From Aquicoccus porphyridii (GTDB lineage Bacteria > Pseudomonadota > Alphaproteobacteria > Rhodobacterales > Rhodobacteraceae), in assembly GCF_008369105.1 (NCBI RefSeq), contig NZ_VINQ01000014.1, forward strand, positions 1 to 64,000: a stretch of 64,000 nucleotides of DNA. The letters are read 5' to 3'. Both the position numbers and the translations under genes were made by a program. Positions 38,205 through 43,337 of the stretch are shown piece after piece (position 1 is the stretch's first letter; every line of letters starts with the position of its first letter). Below the pieces are notes generated by a model that was not told the origin of the DNA, ran no database searches, and saw nothing but the letters and a program-made list of their open reading frames with translations.

Positions 38205-39452
38205 TCAGATCAGGAACTCGGCCAGGATATTGTCGTTGGTGATGTCCCTGTAGGTGAACCCGGCCTCGTCCAGCCGGGTCAGAAGCGTATCGAAATTTTC
38301 GCGTTTCGAGGTCTCGATTCCGATCAGCACCGAGCCGAAATTCCGCGCCGATTTCTTGAGGTATTCAAAGCGCGCGATGTCATCTTCGGGGCCGAGGATA
38401 CTGAGAAACTCCTTGAGCGCGCCGGGGCGCTGGGGGAGGCGGAGGATGAAGTATTTCTTGACCCCTGAAAACCGCTGGGCGCGTTCCTTGACCTCGGGGA
38501 GGCGTTCGAAATCGAAGTTGCCGCCCGAGGTGATGCAGACGACCCGCTTGCCCGCGATCTGGTCGGCCATGTCGGCGAGCACGTCAATGGCCAGCGCGCC
38601 GGCGGGTTCGAGAACGATGCCCTCGACATTCAGCATTTCAAGGATCGTGGTGCAGATGCGATCTTCGGGGGCCGCGTAGACGTTTGAAATATCGAATTTT
38701 TTCAACGTCCTGAAGGGGGCCTTTCCGATCCTTGCGACGGCGGCTCCATCGACGAAACTGTCAACCCGGTCGAGCGTCACCGGCGCGCCTGCGCGGATCG
38801 CGGCGGCGAGGCTTGTGCCGCCCTCTGGTTCGACAAAGCTATAGTGCACCGCATCACCGAAATACTGGCATACGCCAGCCGAAAGCCCGCCGCCGCCGAC
38901 GGGCAGGATGATGTGATCGGGTGCGCCGCCGAACTGGTCGGCGATTTCCACGGCGACAGAGGCCTGGCCCTCGATCACGTCTTCATCGTCGAACGGGGCG
39001 AGGAAATGCCCGCCCTCGGTCGCGCAGAAGCGTTGCGCTTCGGCCAGTGTGTCGTCGAAATAGTCGCCAGTCAGGCGAATTTCGACCGCGCCCCCGCCGA
39101 AAATGCGGGTTTTCTGGATCTTCTGCTGCGGTGTTGTCACCGGCATGAAGATCACGCCCTGCACGCCGAAATGCTGGCACATGAAGGCCACCCCCTGCGC
39201 GTGGTTGCCCGCAGAGGCACAGACGAAGAGGCGCGACGCGGGTGCCACATCCAGAACTTTGCGCATCGCGTTGAATGCACCGCGCAACTTGTAGGACCGC
39301 ACCGGCGAAAGATCTTCGCGCTTGAGGTAAAGATCGCAGCCGAATCTTTCGGAAAGGTGAACATTGCGTTGCAACGGGGTTTCGGGGAACACCTGTCGCA
39401 TGGCGCGTTCGGCCGCACGGGCGCGGGTATGGAAATCCTGTTGCGAGCTCAT
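38205..39452 (-). CDS. ilvA: threonine ammonia-lyase
   Basis: 415 residues. PLP-dependent deamination of threonine to 2-oxobutyrate, first step to isoleucine. The PLP Lys is K55 in [10 protein letters not shown], and the PLP-phosphate loop is in [11 protein letters not shown]. One ACT-like regulatory domain ends the protein ([20 protein letters not shown]), as in the shorter biosynthetic form. It is divergent from argG with a 101-base gap. Confidence 0.94.
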
Positions 39453-39553
39453 TTCTCCTGTGTGGCGCAGAGCGCGATTGCAGGCAAGCCCCGCACCTTG
39501 CCCTGCCGCAGAAAACCCTTTATCGCGCGGGCAAACAAACGAGGGGAACAGCG

Positions 39554-40783
39554 ATGTCCGCGCCGAAGAAAGTTGTGCTGGCCTATTCCGGTGGCCTTGA
39601 TACGTCGATCATCCTGAAATGGCTTCAGACGGAATATGGTTGCGAGGTCGTGACCTTTACCGCCGATCTGGGCCAGGGCGAGGAGCTGGAGCCCGCGCGC
39701 GAAAAGGCCGAGATGTTGGGGATCAAGCCGGAAAACATCTATATCGAGGATGTGCGCGAGGAATTCGTGCGCGATTTCGTGTTTCCGATGTTCCGGGCGA
39801 ACGCGGTTTACGAGGGGCTTTACCTCTTGGGCACCTCGATTGCGCGGCCGCTTATTTCCAAGCGCCTGATCGAGATCGCGGCGGAAACCGGCGCGGATGC
39901 GGTGGCGCATGGGGCGACGGGCAAGGGCAATGATCAGGTGCGGTTCGAACTGGCGGCCTATGCGCTCAACCCCGATATCAGGGTGATCGCGCCGTGGCGG
40001 GAATGGGATCTGACAAGCCGGACGAAACTGCTTGATTTCGCGGAGAAAAACCAGATCCCGATCGCCAAGGACAAGCGTGGAGAGGCGCCGTTCTCGGTCG
40101 ATGCGAACCTGTTGCACACTTCGTCCGAGGGCAAGGTTCTGGAAGATCCGGCGGTGGATGCGCCGGATTACGTTTACCAGCGCACCGTGCATCCCGAGGA
40201 TGCGCCGGATCAGCCGGAATTCATCGAGATCGGCTTTGAAAAAGGCGATGCGGTGAGCATCAACGGCGCGGCGATGAGCCCTGCCAACATACTGACAACA
40301 TTGAATGAATATGGTCGCAAGCACGGGATTGGGCGGCTTGATCTTGTCGAGGGGCGATTCGTCGGGATGAAATCGCGCGGCATCTATGAGACGCCGGGCG
40401 GCACGATATTGCTTGAGGCGCATCGCGGGATCGAGAGCATCACGATGGATCGCGGCGCGATGCATCTCAAGGATCAGATCATGCCGCAATATGCCGAGCT
40501 GATCTATAACGGGTTCTGGTTCAGCCCCGAACGCGAGATGCTTCAGGCGCTGATCGACAAGAGCCAGGATTACGTGACCGGGACCGTAAGGTTGAAGCTT
40601 TACAAGGGCTTGGCCCGGACGGTCGGGCGCTGGTCGGACTATTCGCTTTACAGCGAAGAGCATGTGACATTCGAGGATGACGCGGGCGCCTATGACCAGA
40701 AGGATGCGGCCGGGTTCATCAAGCTCAACGCGCTGCGGTTGCGGCTGTTGGCGATGCGGAAAAACCGGGTCGACGGCGAATAA
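39554..40783 (+). CDS. argG: argininosuccinate synthase
   Basis: 409 residues. It joins citrulline and aspartate using ATP. The ATP PP-motif [16 protein letters not shown] is at residues 10-25. [14 protein letters not shown] and [16 protein letters not shown] are conserved through the family. GAGGGG precedes the ATG at 39554. argJ lies at 16 kb. Downstream lies repeat family 2, copy C. Confidence 0.97.
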
Positions 40784-40912: not shown

Positions 40913-41626
40913 TCAAATCTTAACGTCCGCTAATTTTTCGTAAAACGGCAGCGCGGCCCGGGCCATTTCGGCACGATCCGGGGGCAGCTCGGGGAGCGGA
41001 CCTTCGGCCGGGGCAAAGCCGGTCGAGCCATGAACCGCGCCATACCAATGCGGCGCCCAGACGCCATCATCCTTGTGCCCGCCCGCCGGCCAGGAGAGCA
41101 TCGCCGGATCGAAGGGCAGGCCGATGGCGTCGCAAAGTTTGCGCAGCATCGTCTCGGGGGCGCGGCGGATGTCGGCGCTGTCGATCACGATGGGGGTCTG
41201 GCCGATGGCGCGGACATGATCGAAAAGCTCGGCCTGCTGGGCAAAGCCGATATCGTCGAGCGTGGGGTTGTCGTATTTCGCGCCGAAGCTGGCGACCACG
41301 CGGGCGGGGTGGCGGATGAGGAAGACATTGACCGTTTCCGACATCCAGTCGCGCGGGATCGCGGGCAGCATGTGCTGGGTCATGTGTTTTTGATAGAAAT
41401 GCGGCTTTCCGCCCGGAACAGGGCCTAACAATTCGTCAACGACCCGGGCGGGGTCTCGCGGTTGCGCGGCAAGGATTTCGTCGCGCATCGGGTGGGCGAG
41501 ACCGGTTTGCGCGAGGTAGGCGGCATAGAAGGGTTCATCGACCACCGCGCAATCGGGTCGCGCGCCGAATGCATACATCATCGCGGTCGAGAGGTTGCGG
41601 GGGCCGGACCACATGGCGATGCGCAT
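40913..41626 (-). CDS. sulfotransferase-like protein, coupled to class IV aminotransferase
   Basis: 237 residues. The N-terminal nucleotide-binding-like loop MWSGPRNLSTAMMYAF and VFLIRHPARVVASF (about 115-130) resemble the 5' and 3' PAPS-binding elements of sulfotransferases. The C-terminal GVWAPHWYGAVHGSTGF is distinctive. Start ATG at 41626 shares a base with the stop of the aminotransferase gene (TGATG). I recall plants having one protein with this domain fused to a BCAT-like domain. Substrate unknown. Confidence 0.8.
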   Translation of the reverse strand: MRIAMWSGPRNLSTAMMYAFGARPDCAVVDEPFYAAYLAQTGLAHPMRDEILAAQPRDPARVVDELLGPVPGGKPHFYQKHMTQHMLPAIPRDWMSETVNVFLIRHPARVVASFGAKYDNPTLDDIGFAQQAELFDHVRAIGQTPIVIDSADIRRAPETMLRKLCDAIGLPFDPAMLSWPAGGHKDDGVWAPHWYGAVHGSTGFAPAEGPLPELPPDRAEMARAALPFYEKLADVKI

Positions 41627-42534
41627 CAGGCGGCCTCCTTGTCGATGAGCGCCTTGTAGAGCGCGCGCAGGCGGTGGGTGACGGGACCCATTTCGCCGGT
41701 GCCGATCTGGCGACCGTCGATTTCGCCCACTGGCGTCTGTGCGCCGAAGGTGCCGGTAAGGAACGCCTCGTTCGCGCCATAGGTGTCGACGAGGGAGAAA
41801 TTACGCTCGTAAACCGGGATGCCGTTTGCGCGGCAGAGGTCGATGACCTTTTGCCGGGTGATGCCGTTCATGCAGTAATCGCCCGTGCTGGTCCAGACCG
41901 CGCCCTTGCGGACGATGAAGAAATTGCAGGCGTTGGTGGTGTTCACGAAGCCATGCACATCGAGCATCAGCGCCTCGTCGGCACCGGCCTTTTCGGCGGC
42001 GATGCAGGCGAGGATGCAGTTGAGCTTGGAATGGGAGTTGAGCTTGGGGTCCTGCGTCATTGGCAACCCGCGGATATGGGGCACGGTGGCAAGGCGGATG
42101 GGGCGCGGGATGGACGGGCGCGAATGTTCCATGATGATGGCGACGGTCGGCCCCTGGCGCGAGAGCGAGGGGTGCTGGAACGGGCGGGTTTTCACACCGC
42201 GCGTGACCATCAGGCGGGCATGGGCGTCGGTGTGCATGTCATTGGCAGTTTGCGTCTCTAACAAGGCGGAAATCACCTCGTCCCTCGTCATGTCGATGTC
42301 GAGGTCGATGGCCTTGGCGGCCTCGAACAGGCGGTCCATATGTTCATCGAGAAAGGCCCATGTGCCGTTGTAGAGGCGCAGCCCCTCCCACACGCCGTCA
42401 CCGAGCATGAAGCCGGAATCATAGACACTGACCATGGCCTGCGCCTTGGGGACGAGGCGGCCGTTGAGCCAGATGAGGATCTCTTCGTTGCGGGCGTCCT
42501 CTTGGGCCTGGTGGGTGGTGACGTGGTCTTGCAT
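41626..42534 (-). CDS. class IV (BCAT/DAAT-like) aminotransferase
   Basis: 302 residues, fold type IV PLP enzyme. The PLP Lys is K170 in LNSHSKLNCILA, and YDSGFMLGDGVWEGLRLYNG is the usual N-terminal motif. Where BCATs and D-amino-acid aminotransferases have a conserved Glu that contacts the PLP pyridine nitrogen (five residues before the Asn in NxF), this protein has T199 (GFVNTTNACNFF). That makes ordinary BCAT activity uncertain. ATG at 42534 follows AAGGAGACC. It is coupled to the sulfotransferase-like gene. Confidence 0.85.
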   Translation of the reverse strand: MQDHVTTHQAQEDARNEEILIWLNGRLVPKAQAMVSVYDSGFMLGDGVWEGLRLYNGTWAFLDEHMDRLFEAAKAIDLDIDMTRDEVISALLETQTANDMHTDAHARLMVTRGVKTRPFQHPSLSRQGPTVAIIMEHSRPSIPRPIRLATVPHIRGLPMTQDPKLNSHSKLNCILACIAAEKAGADEALMLDVHGFVNTTNACNFFIVRKGAVWTSTGDYCMNGITRQKVIDLCRANGIPVYERNFSLVDTYGANEAFLTGTFGAQTPVGEIDGRQIGTGEMGPVTHRLRALYKALIDKEAA

Positions 42535-42677
42535 CGCGGTCTCCTTTGGTTGGGACGCTAGCGTTTTTCGTGCCGATGCCAAGGGGGTAACGGGGTTTCA
42601 CCTGTGCGTGATATCAGGTTTCGGGGGATTGGCGGGGCCGTGCGTGCGCGGCATGCTGGCGGCAGGAGGTATCTGTG

Positions 42678-43337
42678 ATGTTGTCGATGAAGGACATGAA
42701 GCCCCTTGCGCTGAGCCTGCTGATCGGGGTGGCCGTTTTGCTGCAATGCGGACGGGCCGAAGCGGGGCCGCGCGAAACGCTGGTGGTCGCGGGCGGCTGT
42801 TTCTGGTGCGTCGAGGCGGATTTCGAAAAGGTGCGCGGCGTGATCGAGGTCGAGTCGGGCTATACCGGTGGCAATGTGAAGAACCCCACCTACAAGCAGG
42901 TCACGCGCGGCGGAACCGGGCATTACGAGGCCGCGGAAATCACCTTCGATGCCGGCCAGGTGAGCCGCAAGCAGCTTCTGGAAATGTTCTTCCGCTCGAT
43001 TGATCCGACCGATGCGGGTGGGCAGTTCTGTGACCGGGGCGAGAGTTATCGCACGGCGGTTTTCGTCTCTGACTCGGCGGAAAAGGCACTGGCCGAGAAG
43101 GTGAAAGCCGAGGCGCAGGCGGCGCTGGGCCAGAAGATCGTGACGCCGATCCTTGGGGCCAAGACATTCTGGACCGCCGAGGATTACCACCAGGATTATT
43201 ACAAGAGCAAGGAACTGGTCCTGACCCGGGCCGGACCCAAGAGCAAGGCGTCCGCCTATGATTTCTATCGCAAGGCCTGTCGCCGTGACCAAAGGGTTCG
43301 TGAGCTGTGGGGCAGTGCGGCGCCCTTTACCGGGTAA
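42678..43337 (+). CDS. msrA: peptide methionine sulfoxide reductase MsrA, exported
   Basis: 219 residues. A signal peptide (about 1-29, SLLIGVAVLLQCGRAEA) precedes the MsrA domain, so it should repair oxidised methionine in the periplasm. The active-site GCFWC is at 40-44 with C41. TGHYEAAEITFD and the SIDPTDAGGQFCDRGESYR block are conserved. GGAGG lies before the GTG/ATG pair at 42675/42678. Single gene, convergent with the sugar kinase. Confidence 0.93.
   Translation: MLSMKDMKPLALSLLIGVAVLLQCGRAEAGPRETLVVAGGCFWCVEADFEKVRGVIEVESGYTGGNVKNPTYKQVTRGGTGHYEAAEITFDAGQVSRKQLLEMFFRSIDPTDAGGQFCDRGESYRTAVFVSDSAEKALAEKVKAEAQAALGQKIVTPILGAKTFWTAEDYHQDYYKSKELVLTRAGPKSKASAYDFYRKACRRDQRVRELWGSAAPFTG

Follow-up and report, generated by a model that had tools for sequence, protein, structure and literature searches.

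In the alphaproteobacterium Aquicoccus porphyridii, a gene for an aminotransferase-like (AT-like) protein and a gene for a sulfotransferase overlap by one base, and we favor, with moderate confidence, the reading that their products form a joint module that does not transaminate and works on an O-sulfated metabolite resembling an amino or imino acid. The AT-like protein has the fold of a class-IV transaminase, with the contacts to the PLP ring replaced in all relatives aligned, while the sulfotransferase looks intact, and the two genes are nearly always inherited together across the Rhodobacteraceae, even in genomes where they are no longer neighbors. The window, i.e. the whole stretch of DNA that was analyzed, comprises 64,000 nucleotides (positions 1 to 64,000 of contig NZ_VINQ01000014.1), and its features around the pair are collected in Table 1.

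Organization of the gene pair

Both genes lie on the minus strand, they share one base of a TGATG stop/start overlap, as the earlier note had described, and a strong Shine-Dalgarno-like sequence precedes the sulfotransferase start within the upstream coding sequence. The conserved flanks of the pair are argG plus an ilvA-like gene (38205-40783) and, at the opposite end, an msrA-like gene. As candidate counterparts, plant 'branched-chain-amino-acid aminotransferase-like' proteins combine the same two domains with the sulfotransferase first, which is the reverse of the operon: here the AT-like gene leads and the sulfotransferase gene follows. The name of these plant genes appears in papers, no functional data were found for them, and At3g05190 and At5g27410 gave no matches in the collection of papers searched. 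No fused AT-like/sulfotransferase reading frame was found among the bacterial loci examined.

Table 1 Features of the gene pair and its flanks (window coordinates)
Feature	Position	Strand	Description
AT-like gene	41626-42534	-	Gene 1 of the pair; 302 aa, class-IV aminotransferase fold, N166 at the Lys position; ATG at 42534, stop codon 41628-41626
Sulfotransferase gene	40913-41626	-	Gene 2 of the pair; PF19798, 237 aa; ATG 41626-41624, stop ending at 40913
TGATG stop/start overlap of both genes	41624-41628	-	Common base 41626
AAGGAGG, Shine-Dalgarno-like, for the sulfotransferase gene	41634-41640	-	Within the AT-like CDS; read from sequence
AGGAG, Shine-Dalgarno-like, for the AT-like start at 42534	42541-42545	-	Read from sequence
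D162-PKLNSHSKL-N172 codons	42019-42051	-	Replaces the PLP-lysine segment in the AT-like protein; N166 vs. Lys and K170 vs. Tyr of BCAT/D-AAT
DGVWAPHWYGAVHGSTGF codons	41015-41068	-	Sulfotransferase residues 187-204; motif named in the earlier note
ilvA-like flank gene	38205-39452	-	Name inferred from translation
argG flank gene	39554-40783	+	Name inferred from translation
msrA-like flank gene	42675-43337	+	Divergent from the pair; name inferred from translation

A class-IV fold with a changed active site

The AT-like protein matches the PF01063 (Aminotran_4) profile with 135 bits (cut-off 28.5) and solved class-IV members with Z scores of 26-33 in fold comparisons, while all NCBIfam transaminase models match it below their cut-offs. 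In class-IV transaminases, a Lys forms the Schiff base with PLP, a Glu contacts N1, a Tyr contacts O3', and the phosphate sits in a cup of Arg, Thr and Thr, the canonical residues being K158, E194 and Y162 for the first three contacts and R61, T223 and T260 for the cup (PMC12429042). The PLP enzymes of class IV (PF01063; BCAT, D-AAT, ADC lyase) have the fold and the cup in common with the AT-like protein, in which other residues stand in for their catalytic Lys, N1-Glu and O3'-Tyr. In the alignment of 145 AT-like relatives, the Lys position is occupied by N166, the Glu position by T/S199 and the Tyr position by K/R170 in every sequence, and the phosphate cup is kept (R53 in 144/145, T226 and T/S262 in 145/145). 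N166 aligns with the Lys of 5mqz and with N174 of 7z79. An invariant lysine was sought in the same 145 relatives and none was found: K115 is present in 141 of them and lies in a different segment, and some lineages have Arg (or Met) at the nearest candidates, K164 and K170. In this genome, the remaining five class-IV proteins keep the Lys and the Glu (judged by eye; the automatic alignment shifts some of them by one column). The predicted model of the AT-like protein has a pLDDT of 82 overall and values below 50 at residues 158-167, the active-site loop being its least sure part.

As the Schiff-base Lys, the N1-Glu and the O3'-Tyr are all replaced, ordinary PLP transamination by the AT-like protein is, to judge by its residues, very unlikely. 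The label 'BCAT-like' given in the earlier note is thus adequate for the fold only. Since H105, R107, R112, Q120, H168, S169 and N201 are invariant across the relatives (n = 145), the active site is, as far as conservation tells, maintained but changed rather than decaying. Separately, one or two in-frame stop codons were seen in otherwise intact AT-like frames (G371, G537, G656, G698, and G699), which may be pseudogenes or sequencing errors.

The closest solved structure is the aminotransferase-like protein 7z79 of Variovorax paradoxus (phmmer 2.4e-86; in the fold comparison Z 32.7, rmsd 2.1 over 277 residues, 47% identity). It likewise has an Asn where the PLP lysine would be, and this Asn is the residue changed in its N174K mutant, 9j32. 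Unlike the AT-like protein studied here, 7z79 belongs by sequence to a clade found in importer operons (61-68% identical to its members), and no PF19798 gene above the cut-off was found in the whole genomes of this clade that were tested. The entry titles of 7z79 and 9j32 name no reaction, and no paper on their function was found.

Several readings of such a site were weighed. The AT-like protein could be a non-catalytic pseudoenzyme that binds the sulfotransferase, or its substrate or product, and so regulates or feeds the sulfotransferase; the loss of all three PLP-ring contacts would agree with this, and translational coupling at many loci as well as the plant fusion would fit a partner subunit. 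We nevertheless regard this as unlikely, because AT-like relatives persist in importer operons without a close PF19798 gene, hence act on their own, and at least seven invariant active-site residues are unrelated to PLP chemistry. Non-covalent binding of PLP or another B6 vitamer, with the AT-like protein serving as a sensor, a carrier or a lysine-free PLP enzyme and the sulfotransferase working in a linked pathway, would explain the conserved cup (R53/T226/T262), but is improbable given that all PLP ring contacts are replaced and that no B6 genes occur among the annotated neighbors. A further reading is a working PLP aminotransferase that makes, together with the sulfotransferase, the aminated or sulfonated metabolite which the earlier note had tentatively suggested. 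The fold, the overall similarity to BCAT/D-AAT and the retained cup speak for it; against it stand the missing Schiff-base lysine in 145/145 relatives, the Arg (or Met) found at K164/K170 in some lineages, the loss of N1-Glu and O3'-Tyr and the lack of any other invariant lysine, so that we consider a working aminotransferase highly improbable and find no support for an 'aminated' product.

Co-inheritance and adjacency of the two genes

In a first sample of 61 relatives, each of the two queries matched 26 genomes, and the two sets differed by one genome each. The count was then based on 295 genera of Rhodobacteraceae, each represented by a single genome; 194 of the genera have both genes and 89 neither, while the AT-like gene alone occurs in 7 and the sulfotransferase gene alone in 5 (phi 0.91, Fisher p ~4e-60, a p value that ignores shared descent). 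In one of the five sulfotransferase-only genera, part of an AT-like gene is present and is truncated by the end of a contig. The genes do not stand apart in most genomes: among the 119 for which both coordinates are listed, the pair is adjacent in 103, always with the AT-like gene first and in 38 cases with the one-base overlap seen at this locus, and the remaining 16 carry both genes at separate places. Outside the Rhodobacteraceae, a close sulfotransferase was found in 14 genomes of a sample spanning the phylum (Pseudomonadota), and in all 14 the AT-like gene adjoins it. At least 591 confirmed matches to the sulfotransferase were obtained in bacterial genomes, mostly with the AT-like partner. 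No relative of the pair was found in viral contigs, and a search of plasmids returned only distant sulfotransferases together with AT-like genes in informative contexts.

The AT-like gene is also present without a close PF19798 gene in 7 genera of the Rhodobacteraceae and in 4/41 cases of the phylum sample, so in places the AT-like protein is independent of this sulfotransferase. A diverged PF19798 gene was sought in the AT-like-only genomes, and the single match above the cut-off was a distant paralogue.

The genomes in which both genes are present and unlinked are the strongest argument for a shared function. Out of 31 sulfotransferase loci without a nearby AT-like gene, 27 keep argG, ilvA or msrA (most of them several), indicating that these are old sites from which the AT-like gene has moved away or disappeared; where checked, these genomes have an AT-like gene at another place, and it mostly represents a second lineage (65-73% identical). 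In a tree built with a quick method and having long outgroup branches, coupled genes are found in all three deep branches, and the coupling therefore looks old, as far as this tree allows. Both gene orders occur in bacteria, the sulfotransferase-first order being rare and located at separate places in the tree. In Alteromonas (L150 5780-7723, L159 5780-7723), the two genes are adjacent and divergent, and the AT-like gene is of a separate lineage. A third operon partner was sought beside coupled pairs with other gene orders, but their neighbors have nothing in common (amidohydrolase, P450, AMP-ligase, catalase, and others), and none is proposed.

As the two genes almost always occur in the same genomes, whether linked or not, one joint function of the pair, which the earlier note had proposed, is supported. 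The view that the two genes are mere neighbors in a conserved chromosomal segment without a shared function draws on the conservation of the argG/ilvA/msrA segment around the pair itself, but it is hardly credible considering that adjacency persists in other families without this segment, that genomes with unlinked genes still carry both, and that the sulfotransferase-first order arose in separate branches.

The sulfotransferase

Residues 1-231 of the sulfotransferase match PF19798 (Sulfotransfer_5) with 307.2 bits (cut-off 23.2), and its predicted model reaches a pLDDT of 95. The fold matches are CurM, Ols, tyrosylprotein and other PAPS sulfotransferases (Z 14-15). G8-P9-R10-N11, S13 and D30-E31-P32 are invariant in 129/129 relatives, and so are Y78, K80, M82, H85, R105 and S113; we take G8-P9-R10-N11 with S13 to be a P-loop-like 5' site and R105/S113 the 3'-phosphate site for PAPS. 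The GVWAP motif pointed out in the earlier note is present (residues 187-204; Table 1), and D187, G188, W190, W194 and Y195 of this stretch do not vary in the 129 relatives. With these motifs kept, the enzyme looks intact and active, and PAPS is its predicted sulfate donor, judging from fold and motifs.

The CurM and Ols domains (4gbm, 4gox) are the only solved sequences significantly reached by the sulfotransferase profile (2.6e-8 and 1.4e-7) and also its best fold matches (Z 14.8 and 14.7). They are polyketide-synthase domains that act on beta-hydroxyacyl-ACP and sulfate a hydroxyl in order to activate it for later loss (PMC3903477), whereas the sulfotransferase described here is a free-standing protein paired with the AT-like protein.

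Distant PF19798-type sulfotransferases were also observed on plasmids, adjoining cysC in Dolichospermum (L170 5989-7917) and near cysC/cysD and adenylation-domain genes in Streptomyces (L171 470-5723). Both loci are probable sulfated natural-product clusters, and the presence of cysC beside distant relatives is consistent with the use of PAPS. Some Rhodobacteraceae (G126, G284, G377, G006, G012, and G499) have a second, distant PF19798 paralogue that is ~32-35% identical where measured and is not tied to the AT-like gene.

AT-like genes away from the sulfotransferase

One AT-like clade, that of 7z79, is no longer associated with the sulfotransferase and occurs instead in an amino-acid-importer operon composed of a GntR regulator, a polar amino-acid ABC importer and the AT-like gene, often together with a ClC channel and proC. 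A mobile-looking form of this operon was seen on plasmids of Agrobacterium, Paracoccus, Thioclava, Pantoea, Palleronia and Pseudomonas savastanoi (L166 4229-11676, L168 5933-12518, L200 4246-11470, L201 4118-11515, L167, L175, and L176), with several of the plasmid copies also carrying GntR, the ClC channel and proC; the channel hints at the release of a halide or another anion. Some AT-like copies of Rhodobacteraceae belong to an amino-acid ABC operon of another type, which in Yoonia includes an ornithine-cyclodeaminase-family gene whose best match, below the cut-off, is a pyrroline-2-carboxylate reductase model. Many other unlinked copies in this family have varied or unrelated neighbors.

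On plasmid pKUB257 of Mameliella alba (L177 2988-16909), the AT-like gene overlaps a choline-sulfatase-type gene, which scores above the threshold of the choline-sulfatase model (591.6 bits, cut-off 433.45). The run comprises GntR, an amino-acid ABC importer, the AT-like gene and the sulfatase-type gene, followed by DHDPS-type, D-amino-acid-dehydrogenase-type, SDR, ALDH and proline-racemase-family genes, an arrangement that looks as if a sulfated imino acid were imported and broken down. For this run, a complete hydroxyproline-sulfate pathway is kept as a lead only, with one locus involved and most models matched below their cut-offs. Among ~35 unlinked AT-like loci, the link to a sulfatase consists of this tightly coupled case and one loose one.

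Taken together, the importer, reductase and sulfatase contexts point to an amino- or imino-acid-like compound as the candidate substrate, and weakly to a sulfate ester of such a compound. A sulfated metabolite is plausible in view of the intact sulfotransferase motifs and of the one AT-like relative coupled to a choline-sulfatase-type gene.

Proposed function and significance

We propose that the two proteins form an old module whose members are inherited together. The sulfotransferase, going by its motifs, would sulfate a hydroxyl group of a small metabolite resembling an amino or imino acid, and the AT-like protein, a repurposed transaminase fold with a new invariant active site, would act on or bind the same metabolite. 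Because the phosphate cup is kept while the Lys, N1-Glu and O3'-Tyr contacts are lost, the old PLP-phosphate cup probably holds the sulfate (or another anionic group). Both the class of the substrate and the role of the AT-like protein as an enzyme rather than a mere binding partner are inferred; an activity of its own, as opposed to pure regulation, is suggested by the importer-operon clade, which works without the sulfotransferase. More speculatively, and with a rather low probability in our estimate, the AT-like protein may be a PLP-free enzyme: the sulfotransferase would make an O-sulfo amino or imino acid, and the AT-like protein would grip its sulfate in the old phosphate cup and drive it out or displace it by elimination or ring closure. 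Sulfation would then serve as activation, much as in CurM and Ols.

The names given in databases to the AT-like partner (branched-chain or class-IV aminotransferase) are contradicted by its active site, and the pair would show what a transaminase fold does after losing PLP. If the plant fusion represents the same pair, the plant enzyme could be worked out in tractable marine bacteria, and if the expulsion of sulfate holds true, marine bacteria, and possibly plants, would use sulfation as activation in their metabolism.
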